Origin: an uncultured Lachnospiraceae bacterium
Lineage (GTDB): Bacteria > Bacillota > Clostridia > Lachnospirales > Lachnospiraceae
Reading direction: 5' to 3'
NCBI GenBank assembly: GCA_944376745.1
Contig: CALWDR010000039.1
Span: 1-32,905 of the forward strand
Length of the DNA: 32,905 bases
In this document: positions 1,838 to 13,706 of the stretch, piece after piece
Position numbering within the stretch: the first letter of the stretch is position 1
Layout: the number at the start of each line of letters is the position of its first letter
Position numbers and translations under genes: made by a program
The notes under the pieces: model-generated
Told to the model about the DNA's origin: nothing
Database searches by the model: none
What the model saw: only the letters and a program-made list of their open reading frames with translations

Positions 1838-2317
1838 ATGGCACTGAGAAAAATTCGCATTATGGGCGATGAGGTTTTGACAAAACAATGCAGGGAAGTC
1901 AAGGGGATGAGTTTTCGTACCCGGCAGTTGATCGGAGATATGCTGGACACCATGTACGAGGCCAACGGCGTGGGTCTGGCGGCGCCCCAGGTGGGCATCC
2001 TGAAGCGCATAGCGGTGATCGATGTGGGGGAAGGCCCCATTGTTCTCGTCAATCCGGTGATCCTGGAGACCTCCGGGGAGCAGACCGGGGACGAGGGTTG
2101 TCTGAGCCTTCCGGGCAAGGCCGGGGAGGTGACGCGGCCCAATTATGTGAAGGTGCGGGCCTTTGATGAGAATATGAAGGAACGGGAGATCGAGGGCACG
2201 GAGCTTCTGGCCAGGGCCCTCTGCCATGAGATCGAGCATCTGGACGGCCACATGTATGTGGAGAAGGTCAACGGCGAGATCCATGATGTGGTATACGAAG
2301 AGGATGAGGAAGCATGA
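1838..2317 (+). CDS. def: Peptide deformylase
   Basis: This cytosolic metalloenzyme removes the N-formyl group from nascent proteins. At 159 aa it has the usual length, and all three family motifs are present: GVGLAAPQVG (motif I), EGCLSLPG (motif II, metal-binding Cys) and HEIEHLDG (motif III, two metal-ligand His and the catalytic Glu). The start is supported by AGGAGG at 1823-1828, nine bases before the ATG. The stop overlaps the fmt start (ATGA), so the enzyme adding the formyl group and the one removing it are probably translationally coupled. Motif III has Glu where many homologues have Asp (HExDHLxG), a conservative change. Confidence 0.97.
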   Translation: MALRKIRIMGDEVLTKQCREVKGMSFRTRQLIGDMLDTMYEANGVGLAAPQVGILKRIAVIDVGEGPIVLVNPVILETSGEQTGDEGCLSLPGKAGEVTRPNYVKVRAFDENMKEREIEGTELLARALCHEIEHLDGHMYVEKVNGEIHDVVYEEDEEA

Positions 2318-3384
2318 GGATTATTTTTATGGGAACCCCGGATTTTTCCGTGGGGACGATGGAAGCGCTGATCGAGGCAGGCCATGAGGTCGTGCTGGCG
2401 GTGACCCAGCCGGATAAGCCCAAAGGGCGGGGCAAGGCCCTGGCCTTCTCCCCGGTGAAGGAGGCGGCCCTGGCCCATGGAATCCCTGTTTACCAGCCGA
2501 GGAGGGTCCGGGAGCCGGAGTGCGTGGCGTATTTAAAGACCTTTGCCCCGGACCTGATCGTGGTGGTGGCCTTCGGGCAGATTCTGACAAAGGAGATCCT
2601 GGAAATGCCGAGATACTGCTGCGTCAACGTCCATGCCTCCCTGTTGCCCAAATACCGGGGCGCGGCCCCCATCCAGTGGGCCGTCATCAACGGGGAGACA
2701 GTGACCGGCGTCACCACCATGCGCATGGACGAGGGGATCGACACCGGCGACATGATTCTGAAGACGGAGGTACCCCTCTCGCCGGAGGAGACGGGGGGCA
2801 GCCTGTTTGAGAAGCTGGCAGAGGCCGGGGCCAGGCTCTGCGTGGAGACGGTTTTGGCCATTGAGACGGGAACGGCGGTGTACACGCCCCAGAACCATCA
2901 GGAGGCCACCCACACCACCATGATCAGGAAGCAGATGGGAGAGCTTGACTTCGCCAGACCGGCGGCAGAGCTGGAGCGCCTTGTGCGGGGCTTGAACCCC
3001 TGGCCCAGCGCCTACACTTACTGGGGCGGTAAGACCCTGAAGATCTGGAAGGCCTCCGTGGTGGAGTCTTCTTCAGAAGCCGGCACGTGTACCGCATCCT
3101 CAAAGGAGGAATCTTCTTCAGGTCCGGCCGGCGCGCGTACCGCATCTTCAAAGGAGGAGCCGGCCCTTCACGCAGCGCCGGAAAGCGATGATCAGGAAAC
3201 TGCCGGCCCGGCCCCCGGAACCGTGGTGAAGGCGGACAGAAGCAGCCTGCTGGTGCAGACCGGGAAGGGCCTTTTGTCCCTGGAAGAGGTGCAGCTGGAG
3301 GGCAAGAAGCGGATGGATATTGCCTCCTTCCTGCGAGGGTATCCCCTGGGGGAGGGAGCGCGGCTTGGAGCTCCCGCCCGCTGA
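2314..3384 (+). CDS. fmt: Methionyl-tRNA formyltransferase with a low-complexity insert
   Basis: Fmt transfers a formyl group from 10-formyl-THF to initiator Met-tRNA. The N-terminal hydrolase-like domain shows MRIIFMGTPDFS, the catalytic NVHASLLPKYRGAAP segment and GIDTGDM. The C-terminal OB-like domain contains GKTLKIWKA and later LEGKKRMDIASFLRG. At 356 aa it is about 40 aa longer than usual. The excess is a Ser/Glu/Ala-rich segment (about residues 249-300) between two beta strands of the C-terminal domain, encoded partly by a tandem duplication (about 3065-3156) that repeats TASSKEE. Such an insert probably sits on a surface loop. It overlaps def by 4 nt. Confidence 0.96.
   Translation: MRIIFMGTPDFSVGTMEALIEAGHEVVLAVTQPDKPKGRGKALAFSPVKEAALAHGIPVYQPRRVREPECVAYLKTFAPDLIVVVAFGQILTKEILEMPRYCCVNVHASLLPKYRGAAPIQWAVINGETVTGVTTMRMDEGIDTGDMILKTEVPLSPEETGGSLFEKLAEAGARLCVETVLAIETGTAVYTPQNHQEATHTTMIRKQMGELDFARPAAELERLVRGLNPWPSAYTYWGGKTLKIWKASVVESSSEAGTCTASSKEESSSGPAGARTASSKEEPALHAAPESDDQETAGPAPGTVVKADRSSLLVQTGKGLLSLEEVQLEGKKRMDIASFLRGYPLGEGARLGAPAR
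3065..3156 (+). repeat. Tandem duplication inside fmt
   Basis: Two imperfect copies of about 45-48 bp (roughly 3065-3109 and 3110-3156) encode the repeated Ser-rich segments ending in TASSKEE. They stay in frame and lie in the insert that distinguishes this Fmt from standard-length homologues. Confidence 0.75.
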
Positions 3385-3454
3385 TGCCGGAAATGCGGAG
3401 AGACGCGCGGCAGTCAGAATGTCTGGAAGCTCCCGCCCGCTGACGCCGGGAATG
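3370..3454 (+). repeat. Direct repeat spanning the fmt stop codon
   Basis: Segment 3370-3395, which contains the fmt TGA (3382-3384), recurs at 3429-3454 with 2 mismatches and a 59-bp period. The second copy keeps the TGA in the equivalent position. The remaining gap to the next gene holds a GGGGCC/GGCCCC hairpin (3519-3537) without a T-tract, so it is not called a terminator. Confidence 0.8.
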
Positions 3455-3559
3455 GCAGCCGCAGTTTCATAAAAATTCGCCAGATAACATTTCCCATATA
3501 AACATGAACAAAGAAGCAGGGGCCTTTCAGCGGCCCCGCAGAAAAAGGAGGAAGCAATC

Positions 3560-4273
3560 ATGCCATACGGGTTTTACACTTTTTGGGACCCCACCTATTT
3601 CCTGGTGATCATCGGGGCGGTGATCTGCCTGCTGGCCTCGGCCAGGGTCAGGACCACCTTCAACAAGTATCAGAGGGTCCGCAGCATGTCCGGCCTCACC
3701 GGGGCGGAGGCGGCGGAACGGATCCTGCGCTCCGCGGGCATCTACGACGTGGTGGTCCGCCACATTCAGGGGAATCTGAACGACCATTACGACCCCAGAA
3801 ATAAGACGCTGAGTTTGTCCGACAGCGTGTACAATTCCACCTCCGTGGCCGCCATCGGCGTGGCGGCCCACGAGTGCGGACATGCCATTCAGCACCAGAA
3901 GGCCTATGCACCCCTGGCCATCCGAAGCGCCCTGGTGCCGGTGGCCAACTTTGGTTCCATGCTGGCCTGGCCGCTGATCCTTATCGGGCTTTTATTTTCC
4001 AGAGGAAGCGGCAGCCTGCTGATCACCATCGGGATCATCTGCTTTTCCGCGGCGGTGCTGTTCCAGCTTGTGACGCTGCCGGTGGAATTTAACGCCTCGG
4101 GGCGGGCCGTCCGGATTCTGGGCTCCCTGGGCATCCTGGGGGATGAGGAGCTGCGGCAGACCAGAAAGGTATTGTCGGCGGCGGCTCTGACCTATGTGGC
4201 CAGCGCGGCGGCGGCCATTTTGCAGCTTCTGCGTCTGGTGATCCTGTTCGGAGGACGAAGAAGCGATGACTGA
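3560..4273 (+). CDS. Membrane zinc metallopeptidase, YugP family (Zn_peptidase_2)
   Basis: This predicted integral-membrane neutral zinc peptidase has 237 aa. The N-terminus has a membrane segment (YFLVIIGAVICLLAS), followed by a soluble part and the zinc motif AAHECGHAIQHQ (HExxH-type HECGH). Two strongly hydrophobic stretches follow (LAWPLILIGLLF and LLITIGIICFSAAVLF), then the FNASGRA segment typical of YugP proteins. The substrate is unknown. AAGGAGG at 3545-3551 precedes the ATG. It overlaps rsmB by 8 nt and sits between fmt and rsmB, as in other Lachnospiraceae-type clusters. Family assignment is confident; the biological role is not established. Confidence 0.9.
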   Translation: MPYGFYTFWDPTYFLVIIGAVICLLASARVRTTFNKYQRVRSMSGLTGAEAAERILRSAGIYDVVVRHIQGNLNDHYDPRNKTLSLSDSVYNSTSVAAIGVAAHECGHAIQHQKAYAPLAIRSALVPVANFGSMLAWPLILIGLLFSRGSGSLLITIGIICFSAAVLFQLVTLPVEFNASGRAVRILGSLGILGDEELRQTRKVLSAAALTYVASAAAAILQLLRLVILFGGRRSDD

Positions 4274-5633
4274 CAGGAAGGCGGCTCTGGCAAAAGGAAG
4301 CGTCTCCGGGCGGGAAGCGCCCCAGGATAAGGTGAATGTGAGAAATCTTGCCCTGGAGGTACTGCTGGCGGTGACCAGGGACGGCGCCTACAGCCATACA
4401 GCCTTAAAGGCCGTGCTGGACAAATATCAGTATCTGAGCAAACAGGAGAGAAGCTTTCTGACCCGGCTTAGTGAGGGAACGCTGGAACGGATGCTGTGGA
4501 TCGACTATGTGCTGGACCGGTTTTCCAGCGTCCCGGCTCGCAAAATGAAGCCGGTCATCCGCACCATTTTAAGAATGGGCGTCTATGAGCTCCAATATAT
4601 GGACGCGGTGCCTCCGTCGGCCACCATCAACGAGGCGGTGAAGCTGACGGAAAAAAAAGGCTTTCACAACCTGAAGGGCTTTGTCAACGGGGTGCTGCGC
4701 AGCATCAGCCGGGGAATTTCTTCGGTAAAGCTGCCGGACCGGGAAACGGAACCCGCGGCCTATCTGTCTGTGGCCTACTCCATGCCGGAGTGGATCGTGG
4801 AGGAATGGCTTGGGTGCTATGAGGTTCAGACAGTGGAGGAGATGCTGGCGGCTTTTCTGACAGAGACGCCCACCAGTATCCGGGTCAACATGGCAAGGAC
4901 CGACCGAAAGACGCTGGCAGAGCGGCTGCGGCAGGAGGGCGTCACCGTGGAGGAGAACCCGGAGCTGCCCTGCGGCCTTTACATTTCCGGCTACGACCAT
5001 TTGAGCGCTTTAAATACCTTCCGGGAAGGGCTGTTCTACGTGCAGGACGAAAGCTCCATGCTGGTGTCGGAGCTGGCGTCCCCGAAGCCGGGGGACTATG
5101 TGCTGGACGTCTGCGCCGCGCCGGGGGGTAAGAGCCTTCATATGGCGGAGCTTCTTAAGGGCACCGGCCTGGTGGAGGCCAGGGATCTGACCCCCGCAAA
5201 GGTGGAGCTGATCCGGGAAAATATAGCGCGCTGCCGGCTTACCAATGTCCGGGCCGTGCAGGCGGACGCCAGGAAATTTTACCCCGCGGATGAGGGACGG
5301 GCGGATATCGTGCTGGCCGACGTGCCCTGCTCCGGCCTTGGCACCCTGGGCAAAAAGACGGACATCAAATACAGGGTGACCCGGGAATCCATCGAAGAGC
5401 TGGCGGCGCTTCAGCGGGAGATCTTAAACACCGTGTCCCGCTATGTGAAGCCCGGCGGAACGCTGATGTACAGCACCTGCACGGTGAGCCGGCGGGAAAA
5501 TGAGGACAATGTGGCCTGGTTTTTGGCGGGACACCCGGAATTTACCCTAGCAATGCAGAGGCAGCTTCTGCCGGCAGCCGGACGCAGGGACGGATTTTTC
5601 CTGGCAAAGCTGATAAAGGAGAACCATGGATAA
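4266..5633 (+). CDS. rsmB: 16S rRNA (cytosine-5) methyltransferase RsmB
   Basis: RsmB methylates C967 (E. coli numbering) of 16S rRNA using SAM. The first about 150 residues form the NusB-like RNA-binding domain (VRNLALEVLLAV; YVLDRFS; FVNGVLRSI). The Rossmann methyltransferase domain contains the SAM motif DVCAAPGGKS, motif IV DVPCSGLGT and motif VI STCTVSRRENE, which carries the catalytic Cys. At 455 aa the length is normal. The ATG overlaps the yugP-like stop by 8 nt and the 3' end overlaps rlmN by 8 nt, so the three genes appear co-transcribed and coupled. Confidence 0.95.
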   Translation: MTDRKAALAKGSVSGREAPQDKVNVRNLALEVLLAVTRDGAYSHTALKAVLDKYQYLSKQERSFLTRLSEGTLERMLWIDYVLDRFSSVPARKMKPVIRTILRMGVYELQYMDAVPPSATINEAVKLTEKKGFHNLKGFVNGVLRSISRGISSVKLPDRETEPAAYLSVAYSMPEWIVEEWLGCYEVQTVEEMLAAFLTETPTSIRVNMARTDRKTLAERLRQEGVTVEENPELPCGLYISGYDHLSALNTFREGLFYVQDESSMLVSELASPKPGDYVLDVCAAPGGKSLHMAELLKGTGLVEARDLTPAKVELIRENIARCRLTNVRAVQADARKFYPADEGRADIVLADVPCSGLGTLGKKTDIKYRVTRESIEELAALQREILNTVSRYVKPGGTLMYSTCTVSRRENEDNVAWFLAGHPEFTLAMQRQLLPAAGRRDGFFLAKLIKENHG

Positions 5634-7395
5634 GACGGATATAAAATCATTGGACCTTGGGGAGTTGAAGGAACTGCTGGCCGGCATGGGGGAGAAGCCC
5701 TTCCGGGCCGGGCAGATCTATACCTGGCTCCACCGGCGGTTTGTAACCTCCTTTGAGGAGATGACGGACATTTCCAAAAACCTGCGGGAGGCGTTAAAAA
5801 GGGACTGTGAGCTGACGGCCTTGAAAAAAATGCAGATGCAGCAGTCCCGGCAGGACGGCACCAGAAAGTACCTCTTTGCCCTGAAGGACGGAAATATGAT
5901 CGAGAGCGTGTTCATGCACTACAGGCACGGGGACAGCGTCTGCATTTCCTCCCAGGCGGGCTGCCGCATGGGCTGCAGGTTCTGCGCCTCCACCCTGGAC
6001 GGACTGGTGCGGAATTTAACGCCCGCGGAGATGCTGGACCAGATCTACCGGATCCAGGCGGACACCGGGGAGCGGATCTCCAATGTGGTGGTGATGGGCA
6101 CCGGGGAGCCTCTGGACAACTACGACAATCTTTTAAAATTTATCCGGCTGCTTACGGACGAGAATGGCTTACATATCAGCCAGAGAAATATTACGGTATC
6201 CACTTGCGGAATCGTGCCGAATATGAGAAAATTAGCTTCGGAGAAGCTTCAGATCACGCTGGCTTTGTCCCTCCACGCTTCCAGCCAGGAGAAGCGCCGG
6301 GCCCTGATGCCGGTGGCGAATAAGTACGGGATCCAGGAGGTCATCGAGGCCTGCCGTGATTATTTTGAAGAAACCGGGCGGCGGATCACCTTCGAGTACG
6401 CGCTGGTGGGCGGAGTGAACGACAGCCAGAGGGACGCCCAGGAGCTGGCGCAGCTGATCAGAGGCTTAAATTGCCACGTAAATCTGATCCCCGTAAATCC
6501 CATCAAGGAGCGGGATTTTGTCCAGTCTGACGCGCCGGTGATACAGAATTTTAAAAATGTGCTTGAAAAATATGGGATAAATGTTACAATCAGAAGGGAA
6601 ATGGGCCGCGATATTGACGGGGCCTGTGGGCAATTACGGAAGAGATATGCAGAGAAAGGCGGTGGAAAAGGGATGAGAACTTTTTCCATTACGGATAAGG
6701 GAAGGATACGCCGGATGAACCAGGATTTTGTGTTTTCCTCGGAGGAGCCGGTGGGAAATCTGCCCAATCTTTTTATCGTCGCCGACGGAATGGGAGGCCA
6801 CAACGCGGGAGATTACGCCTCCAGGCGCGCAGTGGAGGTGATGGTGCGGGAGATCAGAGAGAGCCGGGCCGTGGAGCCGCCCGCGATTTTTGAACAGGCC
6901 ATCCGCAGCGCCAACCAGGAGCTGCTTGCAAGGGCCCGGGAGGACGTCCGTCTGGAGGGCATGGGAACCACCGCGGTGCTGGCAAGCCTTGCGGACCGCA
7001 AGCTTTGGGTGGCAAATGTGGGCGACAGCCGCTTATATGTGGTGAACGAGGACATGACCCAGGTGACCGTGGACCATTCCCTGGTGGAGGAGCTGGTGCG
7101 CATGGGCAAGATCGAGGAGGCCGAGGCCAGGGAGCACCCGGACAAAAATCTTATTACCAGAGCCATCGGTGCCAGTGAAGAGGTGACGGCGGATGTCTTT
7201 GAGGTGGATGTGAAGGAAGGCGACTTCATTTTGCTGTGCTCCGACGGACTGACCAATATGCTGAAGGACGAGGAGATACAGTCCATTGTGCGGAGCCAGA
7301 AAAATGTCAGGGAAAAAGTGGAAGAACTGGTGGCGGACGCCGATGCCAACGGCGGGAAAGACAACATTACGGCCATTTTGATAGAACCATATTAA
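5626..7395 (+). CDS. rlmN: RlmN (rRNA/tRNA m2A methyltransferase) fused in frame to PP2C-type phosphatase Stp
   Basis: This is one uninterrupted 589-codon frame. Residues 1-349 are a full-length radical-SAM RlmN, which methylates A2503 of 23S rRNA and A37 of some tRNAs. The 4Fe-4S ligands are C113, C117 and C120 (CRMGCRFC), and the two catalytic Cys are C106 (SVCISSQ) and C334 (GACGQL). Residues 350-589 are a complete PPM/PP2C phosphatase. No stop separates them: the RlmN C-terminus (RKRYAEKGGGKG) runs straight into MRTFSITDKG. In most genomes these are adjacent but separate genes. An internal ribosome site before codon 350 means Stp might also be made alone. Both domain assignments are secure; whether the fused protein accumulates is not shown by sequence. 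Confidence 0.93.
   Translation: MDKTDIKSLDLGELKELLAGMGEKPFRAGQIYTWLHRRFVTSFEEMTDISKNLREALKRDCELTALKKMQMQQSRQDGTRKYLFALKDGNMIESVFMHYRHGDSVCISSQAGCRMGCRFCASTLDGLVRNLTPAEMLDQIYRIQADTGERISNVVVMGTGEPLDNYDNLLKFIRLLTDENGLHISQRNITVSTCGIVPNMRKLASEKLQITLALSLHASSQEKRRALMPVANKYGIQEVIEACRDYFEETGRRITFEYALVGGVNDSQRDAQELAQLIRGLNCHVNLIPVNPIKERDFVQSDAPVIQNFKNVLEKYGINVTIRREMGRDIDGACGQLRKRYAEKGGGKGMRTFSITDKGRIRRMNQDFVFSSEEPVGNLPNLFIVADGMGGHNAGDYASRRAVEVMVREIRESRAVEPPAIFEQAIRSANQELLARAREDVRLEGMGTTAVLASLADRKLWVANVGDSRLYVVNEDMTQVTVDHSLVEELVRMGKIEEAEAREHPDKNLITRAIGASEEVTADVFEVDVKEGDFILLCSDGLTNMLKDEEIQSIVRSQKNVREKVEELVADADANGGKDNITAILIEPY
6673..7395 (+). CDS. stp: Stp/PrpC Ser/Thr protein phosphatase domain, possible independent translation start
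   Basis: This is the PPM-family Mn/Mg-dependent phosphatase that opposes PrkC, the next gene. Metal-binding and structural motifs are complete: RMNQDF, VADGMGGHNAGDYAS, GMGTTAV, VANVGDSRLY, LCSDGL and GGKDNITAI. The 240-aa length is normal for a stand-alone Stp. The upstream sequence AGGCGGTGG (6657-6665) lies 7 nt before this ATG and resembles a strong Shine-Dalgarno, so internal initiation is plausible. However, the upstream rlmN frame reads through without a stop. It is listed separately so that both readings are visible. Stop to prkC ATG is 15 nt. Confidence 0.75.
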   Translation: MRTFSITDKGRIRRMNQDFVFSSEEPVGNLPNLFIVADGMGGHNAGDYASRRAVEVMVREIRESRAVEPPAIFEQAIRSANQELLARAREDVRLEGMGTTAVLASLADRKLWVANVGDSRLYVVNEDMTQVTVDHSLVEELVRMGKIEEAEAREHPDKNLITRAIGASEEVTADVFEVDVKEGDFILLCSDGLTNMLKDEEIQSIVRSQKNVREKVEELVADADANGGKDNITAILIEPY

Positions 7396-7410
7396 GGTGA
7401 GGTGAAGACC

Positions 7411-9492
7411 ATGTTAGAAGGAATGTATATCGCAGACAGATATGAGATCGTCGGGAAGGTAGGAACCGGCGGGATGTCCGACGTTTACAAGGCGAAGGAC
7501 CACATTTTAGGACGGTTTGTGGCCGTTAAGGTGTTAAAGCCGGAATTTTCCGAGGACGTGAACTTTGTCACGAAGTTCCGCACGGAGGCTCAGTCCGCGG
7601 CGGGCCTGGAGCACCCCAATATCGTGAACATCTACGACGTGGGCAGCGAGAACGGGATGTACTATATCGTTATGGAGTACGTGGAAGGCATCACGCTGAA
7701 AACCTACATTGAGAAGAAGGGACAGCTCTCCTACAAGGAGGCCGTCAGCATTGCCATACAGGTGGGCCGGGGCATTGAGGCCGCCCACAACAAGCACATC
7801 GTGCACCGGGACATCAAGCCCCAGAACATCATCATTTCCACGGAGGGGAAGGTGAAGGTGACGGACTTCGGCATCGCCCGGGCCGCCAACAATCACACCA
7901 TTCATTCTGACGTGATGGGCTCCGTCCACTATACGTCTCCCGAACAGGCCAGAAATGGATTTGTGGACGGCAAGAGCGATATTTATTCTCTGGGGATCAT
8001 CATGTACGAGATGGTGACCGGGCGGGTGCCCTTTGACGGGGACAGCACCGTGGCCATCGCCATTCAGCATTTGCAGGAGGAGATGACGCCTCCCAGCGTC
8101 TACGCCCCCAACCTGCCCATCAGCATGGAAAAGGTGATCTTAAAATGTACCCAGAAGAATCCGGACCGCCGCTATGAGACCGTCAGCGATCTGCTGGTGG
8201 ACTTAAAGAAGGTGCTGATCAGCCCCGACGAGGATTTTGTGACCATTCTTCCCGTGGGGCAGGAAAGGACCAGGGTGGTGCCCAGGGAGGACCTGGAAAA
8301 GATCCAGCAGGAGACCAACGACTCCTATTACCGGGACCAGGAGGACGACGACTCCGGGGAAGGCGAGGAGGAGGAAAATGAGGAGGAGGGAGGCTTCCTG
8401 AATCCCAGGATGGAGAAGGCCGTGACCATTATGGGCATTGTGGCCGCCGTGATCATCGTGGCCATCATCGTGGTGATCATCGGAAGCATGACCAACTGGT
8501 TCCGTTTCAGCGGTGGAAACGATAAGGAGCCTGGGGAGCAGACGCAACAGGAGCAGGAGCCGGAGAAAGAGACCTACACCATGATCTCCCTGCTGGGCAT
8601 GACCGAGGAGGAAGCCCAGGACGCGCTGGATAAGGAAAAGATGGATATTGGAATCAAGGTGGTGGGTACGATCGCCTCCGAGGAGTACGAGGAGGGCCAG
8701 ATCGTGACTCAGAGCGTGGACGAGGGTGACGAGGTGGAAATCAATACCACCATTGAGGTAGAGATCAGCAGCGGCCCCGGAGAGTTTGAGGCGCCCAAGG
8801 TGGTGGGCCAGGATGAGGATACTGCGGCCCAGATGATCGAGGACGCCGGCCTGGTGGCCCAGCGGGATTTTGACTACAGCGATACGGTGCCCCAGGGCTA
8901 CGTCATTTCCCAGACGCCGGAGGCAGGAACCCCTGTGAAGGAGGGAGATACTGTCACCTACGTGGTCAGCCAGGGCGTTCAGACCGTCCGGGTGCCGGAT
9001 GTGACCGGAAGGACCGAGGCGGACGCCAGAGCGGAGCTGAACGCGGCGGGCTTTACCAATATTACGGTCACCACGGAGTATGACAGCACCGTGGCGGAGG
9101 GACTGGTGATCCGTCAGAGCTTTGCCGGGGAGTATAAGGAGCCAAGCACCACCATCAGCCTGGTGATCAGTCTCGGAAAGAGGCCGGAGTACTATTCCTT
9201 TAACCGTACTTATAATTATCCTGCGCTGATTAATGCGGATGCAGTCCAGAGTAAGGTTAAAGCAACGGTAGAGCTGACGTTGCCGGAGAGCGATGAGGTT
9301 GTGCCCACCATTGTGACGGACAACGGCAATAGTATTACCATATCCGCCTCTGATATTGTAAATTATAGTAGTGGAAACTTGTTGATTGAGTGGACTTGGA
9401 CAGAGACCGTCATTGCGGAGGATGGTACAGAAACATCCACACAGCAAAAAAAGACAGATACGTTTGATAACGTCAGCTTCCAGCCACAGTAG
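7411..9492 (+). CDS. prkC: PASTA-domain Ser/Thr protein kinase PrkC/StkP type
   Basis: This transmembrane eukaryotic-type kinase senses muropeptides or lipid II. The start is set at ATG 7411 (693 aa) because GAGGTG at 7399-7404 is well spaced; the GTG at 7402 lies inside that site. The kinase domain has GTGGMSDVYKA, the ATP Lys K40, the catalytic HRDIKPQN (D134) and DFG (D152). An acidic juxtamembrane stretch is followed by one TM helix (about 337-360). Outside are three PASTA repeats (about 388-455, 459-522 and 523-590) and a roughly 100-residue C-terminal extension of unknown fold. That extension (from about nt 9190) has visibly AT-richer codons than the rest. Its partner phosphatase lies immediately upstream. 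Confidence 0.95.
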   Translation: MLEGMYIADRYEIVGKVGTGGMSDVYKAKDHILGRFVAVKVLKPEFSEDVNFVTKFRTEAQSAAGLEHPNIVNIYDVGSENGMYYIVMEYVEGITLKTYIEKKGQLSYKEAVSIAIQVGRGIEAAHNKHIVHRDIKPQNIIISTEGKVKVTDFGIARAANNHTIHSDVMGSVHYTSPEQARNGFVDGKSDIYSLGIIMYEMVTGRVPFDGDSTVAIAIQHLQEEMTPPSVYAPNLPISMEKVILKCTQKNPDRRYETVSDLLVDLKKVLISPDEDFVTILPVGQERTRVVPREDLEKIQQETNDSYYRDQEDDDSGEGEEEENEEEGGFLNPRMEKAVTIMGIVAAVIIVAIIVVIIGSMTNWFRFSGGNDKEPGEQTQQEQEPEKETYTMISLLGMTEEEAQDALDKEKMDIGIKVVGTIASEEYEEGQIVTQSVDEGDEVEINTTIEVEISSGPGEFEAPKVVGQDEDTAAQMIEDAGLVAQRDFDYSDTVPQGYVISQTPEAGTPVKEGDTVTYVVSQGVQTVRVPDVTGRTEADARAELNAAGFTNITVTTEYDSTVAEGLVIRQSFAGEYKEPSTTISLVISLGKRPEYYSFNRTYNYPALINADAVQSKVKATVELTLPESDEVVPTIVTDNGNSITISASDIVNYSSGNLLIEWTWTETVIAEDGTETSTQQKKTDTFDNVSFQPQ

Positions 9493-9509
9493 TCGGACAT
9501 GAATGATAA

Positions 9510-9593
9510 GGCAGGGACAGAATTGTAAGGCTCCATTCCCTGCTGGCAGGGACAGAATCGTAAGGCTCCTGTTCCTGCCAGCAGGGAATGGAG
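9510..9593 (+). repeat. Composite direct and inverted repeat between prkC and rsgA
   Basis: Segments 9531-9555 and 9569-9593 are 25-base arms that pair completely if one G-U is allowed, around a 13-base loop. The left arm also takes part in a 25-base direct repeat (9510-9534 versus 9545-9569, 1 mismatch, period 35). No T-tract follows, so it is a strong hairpin rather than a classic terminator. It could be a REP-like element or an RNA-processing/stability structure. Confidence 0.8.
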
Positions 9594-9656
9594 AAGTCAG
9601 AGCGCAGGGCTGATTCAATTAGCGGAAGCTAGGTAGCCAGAGCGAAAACACGACTT

Positions 9657-9715
9657 ACAGGGGAACCGCTTGACAGAAAGAAAAAAGATTCACAGGAGAA
9701 CAGCTTGACAGAGGG
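9657..9715 (+). promoter_or_regulatory. Duplicated ribosome-binding/start region of rsgA with a 12-codon leader frame
   Basis: The ribosome site plus TTG start of rsgA (AGGAG then TTGACAGAG) has an upstream near-copy at about 9657-9680 (AGGGG then TTGACAGAA). Reading from the upstream TTG at 9670 gives 12 codons ending in a TGA (9706-9708) that overlaps the rsgA TTG as TTGA. This arrangement would permit translational coupling, but could equally be the by-product of a local duplication. Confidence 0.5.
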
Positions 9716-10583
9716 AAAGATCATCAAGGGAATTGCCGGTTTTTACTATGTGCACACCCCGGACAACCAGGTGTATGAGTGCAAGGCCAAGGGAATCTTT
9801 CGGAAGGAGAACATCAAGCCTCTGGTGGGGGACAATGTAAGGCTTCAGATTCTTGACCCGGAGGAAAAGACCGGCAATATCACGGAAATTTTAGAACGGA
9901 AAAATGAGCTGATCCGGCCCGCCGTGGCAAATATCGACCAGGCTCTGGTGATATTTGCCGCTGTCAGCCCCAAACCGAATTTTTATCTTCTGGATAAATT
10001 TCTGGTGAGCATGGAGTACCGGCAGGTGGAGACGGTCATCTGTTTTAACAAGCGGGATCTGGCCGGGGAGGGCTGGCTGAGAGAACTGGCCTGCCGCTAT
10101 GAGCACTGCGGCCATGAGGCGTTGTTTACCAGCGCCAAGAAGGAGCAGGGCCGGGAGGAGTTGCTGGCGCTTCTCGCCCACAAGACCACGGCGGTGGCCG
10201 GACCCTCCGGCGTGGGAAAATCCTCCCTCATCAATCTGCTGGCGCCCGGCACGGACATGGAGACCGGGGCCATCAGCGAGAAGATCGAGCGGGGCAGGCA
10301 TACCACCCGCCATTCCCAGCTGATCCATATCGCGGACACCACCTATATCATGGATACGCCGGGGTTCAGCTCCCTGTATGTGGACCGAATCCTGCCGGAG
10401 GAGCTGAAAGCTTATTTCCGAGAGTTTGCGCCCTATGAGAACTGCCGTTTTCTGGGGTGCAGCCACACCCATGAGCCCGGCTGCGGGGTGAAGGAGGCCG
10501 TAGAGCAGGGGAAGATTTCCCCGGGCCGCTATGAGAATTATGTTGCAATGTATCAGGAACTGAAAGAGATAAAGAGGTATTAG
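9705..10583 (+). CDS. rsgA: Small ribosomal subunit biogenesis GTPase RsgA
   Basis: RsgA (YloQ/YjeQ) is a circularly permuted GTPase that acts late in 30S assembly. An N-terminal OB fold (KIIKGIAGFYYV) is followed by G4 NKRD, G5 TSAKK, then G1 GPSGVGKSS and G3 DTPGF, the permuted order expected of this family. The C-terminal zinc module shows CRFLGCSHTHEPGC. The start is a TTG at 9705, preceded by AGGAG (9694-9698); this puts the N-terminus exactly where homologues begin. The TTG overlaps the stop of a 12-codon upstream frame (see 9657-9708). The rpe ATG begins 2 nt after its stop codon, indicating an operon. Confidence 0.95.
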   Translation: MTEGKIIKGIAGFYYVHTPDNQVYECKAKGIFRKENIKPLVGDNVRLQILDPEEKTGNITEILERKNELIRPAVANIDQALVIFAAVSPKPNFYLLDKFLVSMEYRQVETVICFNKRDLAGEGWLRELACRYEHCGHEALFTSAKKEQGREELLALLAHKTTAVAGPSGVGKSSLINLLAPGTDMETGAISEKIERGRHTTRHSQLIHIADTTYIMDTPGFSSLYVDRILPEELKAYFREFAPYENCRFLGCSHTHEPGCGVKEAVEQGKISPGRYENYVAMYQELKEIKRY

Positions 10584-10584
10584 C

Positions 10585-11238
10585 ATGAATTATTTGTCGC
10601 CGTCGATCTTATCGGCGGATTTTTCCAGGCTGGGCGAGCAGGTGAAGGCCCTTGATCAGGCCGGCGCCCAGTATGTGCATATCGACGTGATGGACGGGAG
10701 CTTTGTGCCCAGCATCAGCCTGGGGCTTCCGGTGATCAGCTCCATCCGTCCCTGTACGGAGCGAATCTTTGACGTGCATCTGATGATCGAGGAGCCGGGC
10801 CGCTATGTGAAGGAGTTTGCCATGGCCGGGGCCGACCTGATCACGGTCCACGCGGAGGCCTGCCGGCATCTGGACCGGACCGTGACAGCCGTCCGGGAGC
10901 TTGGCAAAAAAGTGGGAGTGGCGTTGAATCCGGCCACGGATCTAAGCTGCCTGAATTACATTCTGCCGGAGCTTGATATGGTACTTCTGATGACCGTGAA
11001 TCCCGGCTTCGGCGGACAGAAATTTATTCCCTACACCATGGAGAAGATCCGTGCCCTGCGGCGGATGGTGGAGCGCCGGGGGCTGTCCACGGATATTGAG
11101 GTGGACGGCGGCGTCACCCTTCAGAACGTGGAGGAGGTCCTTCTGGCCGGGGCAAACGTCATCGTGGCCGGAAGCGCGGTCTTTCAGGGGAATCTTGCGG
11201 AAAATGTGAGCGCCTTCCTGGAGAAGATGTGGCGGTAG
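10585..11238 (+). CDS. rpe: Ribulose-phosphate 3-epimerase
   Basis: Rpe interconverts ribulose-5-phosphate and xylulose-5-phosphate in the pentose phosphate pathway. The 217-aa TIM barrel carries family signatures in order: LSPSILSADFSRLGEQV, the metal-binding HIDVMDGSFVP, DVHLMIEEP, VNPGFGGQKF and the phosphate-binding VDGGV with VAGSAVF. The ATG lies 2 nt after the rsgA stop, with AAAGAGG at 10571-10577 as ribosome site. The rsgA-rpe-thiN order is common in Firmicutes. The other pentose-phosphate enzyme in the window is rpiB at 17779. Confidence 0.96.
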   Translation: MNYLSPSILSADFSRLGEQVKALDQAGAQYVHIDVMDGSFVPSISLGLPVISSIRPCTERIFDVHLMIEEPGRYVKEFAMAGADLITVHAEACRHLDRTVTAVRELGKKVGVALNPATDLSCLNYILPELDMVLLMTVNPGFGGQKFIPYTMEKIRALRRMVERRGLSTDIEVDGGVTLQNVEEVLLAGANVIVAGSAVFQGNLAENVSAFLEKMWR

Positions 11239-12122: not shown

Positions 12123-13706
12123 ATGGGAACTTATTTAAATCCGGGGAACAGTGGATTTGCGGAAATCCGAAGCAGCAGGTATGTGGACAAAACAGGATTG
12201 ATTGGGTTGATCAACAGAACCATCGGTACAAAATTGAAATTAACCTGTGTCAGCAGGCCCCGGCGCTTCGGAAAATCATTTGCGGCACAGATGCTGTGCG
12301 CGTATTATGACAGGACCTGTGATTCGTCCGCGTTGTTTGGGGATTTGGAAATTGCTTTAAACAAAGATTTTAACGAGGCCTATAAGAAGCATTTAAATCA
12401 ATATGATGTAATTTATCTTGATATGACGAATATTTTGGGGGAAACGGAGAAAAAAGAGGTTGTCGACTATATTAAGCGAAAAGTGACGGAGGAGCTTATA
12501 TCCGCATACCCGGCTTTGAAAGCGGATGAAGAATCCTTTTCCACCACATTGATTCATGCGGTGGAGCTTACCGGAAGCAAGTTTATTGCTATCATCGATG
12601 AGTGGGATGCTCCCATTCGGGAAGCTCCTGAAATAGAAAAAGAGTATCTGACATTTCTGCGTATGCTGTTTAAAAGCAGCGGTACGACGGACAAAATTTT
12701 TGCCGCCGCCTATATGACGGGGATCCTGCCCATCAAGAAGGACGGTTCGGAATCTGCCATTTCCGATTTTTGGGAGTATTCCATGCTGGAACCGGGGGAA
12801 TTTCAGAGATACGTAGGTTTTACGGAGGAAGATGTAAGAAAGCTCTGTCAGGAAAGCAGTCTGAGCTTTGCGGAGGCAAAACGGTGGTATGATGGTTATT
12901 CTTTTGATACAGTTACCTCCGTCTACAATCCTTATTCTATCATGAAGGCAATTACCATGAAGAAATTTAAGTCTTATTGGAGGATGTCTTCTGCCGCTGA
13001 CGCGCTGGAGGATTACATTGCCGGAGATTACGACGGGCTTTTCCAGGCTGTTCTGGAACTGCTGGGCGGTTTTCATATTCCTGTGGATACGGACGGGTTC
13101 AATAATGATATTGCCACTGTAAAAAACAGGGATGACGTGCTGACGCTTCTGATTCATCTGGGGTATCTGGCATATGATGAAAAAGAGGGAACGGTTCGGA
13201 TTCCAAACGAGGAGATAAAAATTGAATTTTCCAAGTCTGTCAGAGAGGTAAAAAGCAAGGAAGCTATCAAAAGAATGCGTGAGAGCAGCCAGTTGATCCT
13301 GGATACGGTTCAGATGAATGAAGATGCGGTAGCTGAACAAATTGAGAAGATTCACGGAGAGGTGTCAGACCCGCTGCATTATAGCAATGAGCAAGCTCTG
13401 AGAAGTGTTATTCAGATTGCTTACTACAGTTATCCAGATTATTATCTGAAATTTGAGGAGCTTCCCTCCGGGGAAGGGTATGCGGATATTGTATATTTTC
13501 CTAAGAGGACATCTCAAATGCCTGTGCTGATCATTGAGTTAAAGTGGAATCAATCGGCAGAGGGAGCAATTGCGCAGATTAAGAATAAGCGATATTTTGA
13601 TTCTTTGAAGGATTACGGAGGAGATATCCTGCTTGTGGGCATTAACTACGATAAAAATGCCAAAAAAGGACGGCGTAAGCATACCTGCAGGATTGAGAAA
13701 CTTTGA
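12123..13706 (+). CDS. AAA-ATPase-like protein with C-terminal PD-(D/E)XK nuclease-like domain
   Basis: This protein belongs to the AAA-ATPase_like plus PDDEXK_9 (DUF1703) class found in many copies in gut anaerobes; its function is undetermined. The N-terminus has the signature YVDKTGLI followed by the P-loop-like SRPRRFGKS, and the Walker B-like region is IAIIDEWDAPIRE. The C-terminus (about residues 450-510) has GYADIVYFP and IIELKW, matching a D-xn-ExK nuclease core. At 527 aa it is full length and intact. The ribosome site is GGAGGTG at 12110-12116. Codons are markedly AT-richer than in the flanking housekeeping genes, suggesting acquisition by transfer. A NUDIX gene follows after 61 nt. 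Confidence 0.88.
   Translation: MGTYLNPGNSGFAEIRSSRYVDKTGLIGLINRTIGTKLKLTCVSRPRRFGKSFAAQMLCAYYDRTCDSSALFGDLEIALNKDFNEAYKKHLNQYDVIYLDMTNILGETEKKEVVDYIKRKVTEELISAYPALKADEESFSTTLIHAVELTGSKFIAIIDEWDAPIREAPEIEKEYLTFLRMLFKSSGTTDKIFAAAYMTGILPIKKDGSESAISDFWEYSMLEPGEFQRYVGFTEEDVRKLCQESSLSFAEAKRWYDGYSFDTVTSVYNPYSIMKAITMKKFKSYWRMSSAADALEDYIAGDYDGLFQAVLELLGGFHIPVDTDGFNNDIATVKNRDDVLTLLIHLGYLAYDEKEGTVRIPNEEIKIEFSKSVREVKSKEAIKRMRESSQLILDTVQMNEDAVAEQIEKIHGEVSDPLHYSNEQALRSVIQIAYYSYPDYYLKFEELPSGEGYADIVYFPKRTSQMPVLIIELKWNQSAEGAIAQIKNKRYFDSLKDYGGDILLVGINYDKNAKKGRRKHTCRIEKL

Follow-up and report, generated by a model that had tools for sequence, protein, structure and literature searches.

The window analyzed here, a stretch of 32,905 nucleotides from an uncultured Lachnospiraceae bacterium (G000; a 4.3-Mb assembly of 340 contigs, 96.6% complete), carries a tight cluster of forward-strand genes at positions 1838-11238: def, fmt, a zinc peptidase gene, rsmB, rlmN-stp, a PASTA kinase gene, rsgA, and rpe. 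Overlaps of 8 nt occur at 4266 and 5626; with junctions this tight and overlapping, coupled translation is likely across much of the def-rpe cluster. A protein with AAA-ATPase_like and PDDEXK_9 domains (PF09820/PF08011) was encoded directly downstream of this housekeeping cluster (12123-13706, forward strand).

The rlmN and stp genes form a single open reading frame of 589 codons, running from ATG to TAA with no internal stop (Table 1). At the fusion junction, the peptide ending in GACGQLRKRYAEKGGGKG continues directly as MRTFSITDKG, which begins at the stp ATG. The first-pass annotation had described an rlmN frame lacking a stop before this ATG and reading through two complete enzymes; both the open reading frame and the profile matches agree, and its coordinates, as well as the Shine–Dalgarno-like sequence AGGCGGTGG that it placed at 6657-6665, were correct. 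The gene is confirmed as a genuine fusion, with two complete enzymes encoded in one frame. An alternative genetic code is not needed, since the junction holds no stop codon.

Table 1. Features of the rlmN-stp locus (coordinates refer to the window).
Feature	Position	Strand	Remarks
rsmB	4266..5633	+	8-nt overlap with the rlmN start
Fused rlmN-stp frame	5626..7395	+	589 codons and TAA; also conserved in G005
RlmN domain, residues 1-345	5626..6660	+	TIGR00048, cysteines present; sole RlmN of the genome
Linker YAEKGGGKG, residues 341-349	6646..6672	+	amino acids differ in G005
Shine–Dalgarno-like stretch (AAAGGCGGTGG core), internal stp start	6653..6665	+	replaces AAAGGTAGG of the congeners (TAG inside the Shine–Dalgarno sequence)
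stp ancestral start codon ATG	6673..6675	+	retained in both fused species
Stp domain, Stp1/PrpC-type PP2C phosphatase, residues 350-589	6673..7395	+	NF033484; metal-binding Asp387/540/579
PASTA Ser/Thr kinase, PrkC/Stk1 type, cognate kinase, 3 PASTA repeats	7402..9492	+	6 nt past the stp stop; alternative ATG at 7411
RsgA (CpgA) ribosome-assembly GTPase	9705..10583	+	same cluster

Both halves scored above the curated NCBIfam equivalog cut-offs: the RlmN half matched TIGR00048 with 420 bits (cut-off 290) over residues 3-340, the Stp half matched NF033484 with 292 bits (cut-off 230) over residues 356-587, and Pfam agreed on the placement of RlmN and PP2C in the fused protein. In an alignment of 35 rows, where unfused relatives were translated through their stop solely to serve as alignment rows, the cysteines of the radical-SAM CxxxCxxC motif (Cys113/117/120), the catalytic Cys106 and Cys334, and the PP2C metal-binding residues D387, D540, and D579 were invariant. 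The roles of these radical-SAM and catalytic cysteines and of the PP2C metal ligands are well established for the two families. Fusion probably leaves the activity of each half unchanged: the RlmN half would methylate C2 of A2503 in 23S rRNA and A37 of some tRNAs, and the Stp half would reverse phosphorylation by the adjoining PASTA kinase. Solved relatives are available for both RlmN (PDB 6fz6, 3rf9, 5hr6) and Stp (PDB 2pk0, 1txo).

The AlphaFold2 model of the fusion had a mean pLDDT of 90.2, with both domains well formed and joined by a short flexible linker. Residues 346-348 of this linker were modelled with pLDDT below 50, and pTM was 0.60; for this reason, the orientation of the domains is not fixed in the model, according to which RlmN-Stp is two beads on a short string with no set arrangement.

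In G000, as well as in the second fused species described below (G005), the fused gene encoded the only RlmN above the profile cut-off and the only canonical Stp1 above the cut-off; further PP2C proteins of these genomes scored far under the Stp1 cut-off. A ribosome starting at rlmN would, unless it falls off, read on into stp and produce a two-domain protein. Since this is the only RlmN in both genomes and no stop codon follows it, we infer that RlmN can be produced only as a fusion, barring cleavage.

Five congeneric genomes (G001-G005) were compared with G000. The same open frame of 589 codons was found in G005, a separately assembled uncultured Lachnospiraceae MAG (CALWLN010000104.1), so the read-through proposed from the first sequence does recur in a relative. 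The two fused genes share 86% amino acid and 85% nucleotide identity and differ by 265 substitutions (dS of about 0.70). The window comes from a fragmented assembly of 340 contigs, and a stop lost through faulty assembly or sequencing was the main ground on which the first-pass annotation could have been overturned; however, the separately assembled G005 gene has equal length and an equally open frame with 265 differing bases, which excludes such an artefact unless independent errors struck both genomes, and leaves this explanation with practically no probability.

The rlmN-stp junction is labile inside this one genus, in which it occurs fused, with an in-frame stop, and out of frame. G001, G003, and G004 share the junction GAA AGG TAG GCG AGR CNA ATG: the two genes are in the same frame, and the TAG terminating rlmN lies 9 nt before the stp ATG, within the stp Shine–Dalgarno sequence. 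In G002 (L019/L044), rlmN also ends with TAG, and stp starts with TTG one base later in another frame. The junctions of the fused species are GAG AAA GGC GGT GGA AAA GGG ATG and GAG AAA GGC GGG CGA GAA AGG ATG; compared with the TAG congeners, these linkers are longer by one codon and free of stops, while the ATG persists together with the purine-rich ribosome site. In the tree of 35 proteins, G000 and G005 grouped together (support 100/100), and the three TAG congeners branched next to them. With the fused pair being one clade nested beside these congeners, one event suffices, and the most plausible history is that the stop was lost once: the in-frame TAG ending rlmN would have disappeared in the ancestor shared by this two-species clade.

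In unfused relatives (loci L004, L005, L006, L126, and L127), the rlmN TAG lies within the stp Shine–Dalgarno sequence (AAAGGTAGG), with no later stop before stp; readthrough of this TAG would likewise yield an RlmN-Stp fusion. Loss of RlmN was reported to increase readthrough in E. coli (PMC10838301), so a feedback would be conceivable in principle.

To survey its distribution, the fused protein was searched against about 60 relatives and 400 genomes each of the family, order, class, and phylum. Among the about 1,460 different Bacillota genomes sampled, no further RlmN-Stp fusion besides that of G005 was found with the E-value cut-offs applied, which distant sub-threshold fusions would escape. 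Among 80 named genome loci, only that of G005 carried the fusion; in a few of them, the junction motif could not be located, and these were left unscored. Apparent fusions in G006, G013, G040, G048, and G122 (open-frame values of 614-817, covering both halves) proved at the DNA level to be separate genes with at least one stop between them. In more than 200 other species, rlmN and stp are adjacent and in frame, with at least one stop between them in each of those listed. An in-frame arrangement is in itself nothing special, since the pair shares a frame in about one third of near relatives, the fraction expected by chance. The chance openness of a linker of about 12 codons is also unremarkable alone; what is notable is that all other listed in-frame pairs retain at least one stop. 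The open-access literature yielded no description of an RlmN-PP2C fusion; this domain pairing was found in no other sampled genome and nowhere in the literature searched, and within that scope it is new.

The loss of the stop left the signals for stp translation in place. The 9-nt gap of the unfused relatives falls within the range in which the second gene may be translated by coupling to the first or by initiation beside it (PMC10666635); judging from the fused sequence, the stp start is now left with independent internal initiation only. The duplex energy of the 22 nt upstream of the stp ATG was -16.6 kcal/mol in G000 and -13.7 kcal/mol in G005, close to the -14.5 at the stp site of the unfused congeners and stronger than the -9.1 at the rlmN start; these energies assume the canonical anti-Shine–Dalgarno sequence, and the canonical 16S 3' end had no exact match in the host assembly. 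The internal stp site ranked first of the 33 (G000) and 35 (G005) ATGs in any frame of the gene and was among the more accessible ones. Across codons 339-349, 6 of 11 residues (55%) are the same in G000 and G005, whereas the 10-nt Shine–Dalgarno core AGAAAGGCGG is identical. This identity alongside a diverged linker peptide suggests, within a short region, that the nucleotides rather than the linker residues are under selection at the junction. Because the stp ribosome site and ATG are retained, with the strongest Shine–Dalgarno sequence of the gene in both species, free Stp is probably also made by internal initiation in addition to the fusion, and the earlier proposal that a good internal site could yield it is strengthened by this first rank in both genomes.

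Substitution rates were compared between the fused pair and the unfused pair G001/G003. For the RlmN half, dN was 0.072 and dS 0.70 in the fused pair versus 0.067 and 0.69 in the unfused one; by this measure, the constraint on RlmN is equal with and without the fusion. For the Stp half, dN was 0.086 in the fused pair versus 0.022 in G001/G003 at similar dS; comparisons with G004 scatter, with omega of 0.07-0.11 among unfused species, and relaxed or altered constraint on Stp in the fused pair is only a hint. Omega values of 0.10 and 0.12 for the two halves indicate purifying selection on both. In a simple neutral substitution simulation, the linker remained stop-free with a probability of about 0.77 per branch; thus, sharing of the fusion by two species does not prove its usefulness, and neutral persistence is likely, with linker residues unconserved and RlmN constraint unchanged.

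Taken as a whole, the sequence data most probably reflect a tolerated, near-neutral fusion of operon genes by stop loss, with both halves functional and additional free Stp, and not a dedicated signalling device. Two points temper this: proteolysis could separate the halves, and the faster evolution of Stp in the fused pair could mean relaxed or altered constraint. A further possibility, to which we give somewhat less than even weight, is that the fusion is a by-product on the phosphatase side, an RlmN with a passenger domain, while nearly all physiological Stp derives from internal initiation, or else the fusion undergoes cleavage. The strength of the internal Shine–Dalgarno sequence, its retention in both species, and its identical core beside a diverged linker peptide all speak for it; however, the fused PP2C domain is intact and has a high-confidence model, and it should therefore be active, and evidence of a protease site was not found.

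The first-pass annotation had seen in the fusion a possible link between ribosome modification and cell-envelope signalling. In B. subtilis, PrkC and PrpC act on EF-Tu, EF-G, and CpgA, the RsgA homologue being a target of this kinase/phosphatase pair (PMC6213207), and RlmN modifies both rRNA and tRNA (PMC10838301). In a bifunctional enzyme, the RlmN half could take Stp to ribosomes and tRNA and deliver it to those substrates of the PASTA kinase that act in translation (EF-Tu, EF-G, RsgA/CpgA), tying their dephosphorylation to ribosome modification and maturation, while free Stp would serve the envelope kinase. The presence of RsgA within the same gene cluster, the retention of the fusion in two species, and the higher Stp dN in the fused pair are consistent with such a role. 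Nevertheless, we consider it improbable: only two sister species were found to carry the fusion, the linker lacks conservation, the constraint on RlmN is unaltered, neutral persistence of the open linker is to be expected, a strong internal start would supply free Stp regardless, and the domain orientation is not fixed in the model. A tolerated fusion remains the preferred reading, and its value lies in catching an operon junction as it turns into a fused gene: a single genus shows the fused state, the state with an in-frame stop, and the out-of-frame state. It also offers a natural construct with which to ask if a physical link exists between ribosome maturation and PASTA-kinase signalling, whose genes have long shared an operon.

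The locus has the same genes in the same order as the Bacillota arrangement rsmB-rlmN-prpC-prkC-rsgA(cpgA), with short or overlapping junctions; in S. aureus, the corresponding operon is def1-fmt-rsmB-rlmN-stp1-stk1 (PMC10788911). It differs in that the stop between rlmN and stp is gone, whereas the two genes are separate in all other sampled relatives besides G005. With stand-alone RlmN proteins (TIGR00048; structures cited above), the fusion shares the full domain and the catalytic residues, but it has an extra C-terminal PP2C domain beginning about 16 residues past the catalytic cysteine. With phosphatases of the Stp1/PrpC/PstP type (NF033484), it shares the full catalytic domain and the position adjoining a PASTA kinase; in contrast to them, Stp is joined at its N-terminus to RlmN, and its own start codon is now internal. 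The predicted pair of products resembles those of infB (IF2) and clpA, cited in PMC11005335 as genes yielding a long product and a shorter in-frame one from an internal ribosome site; here, the two products are deduced from sequence, and the frame that would encode them derives from two formerly separate genes.
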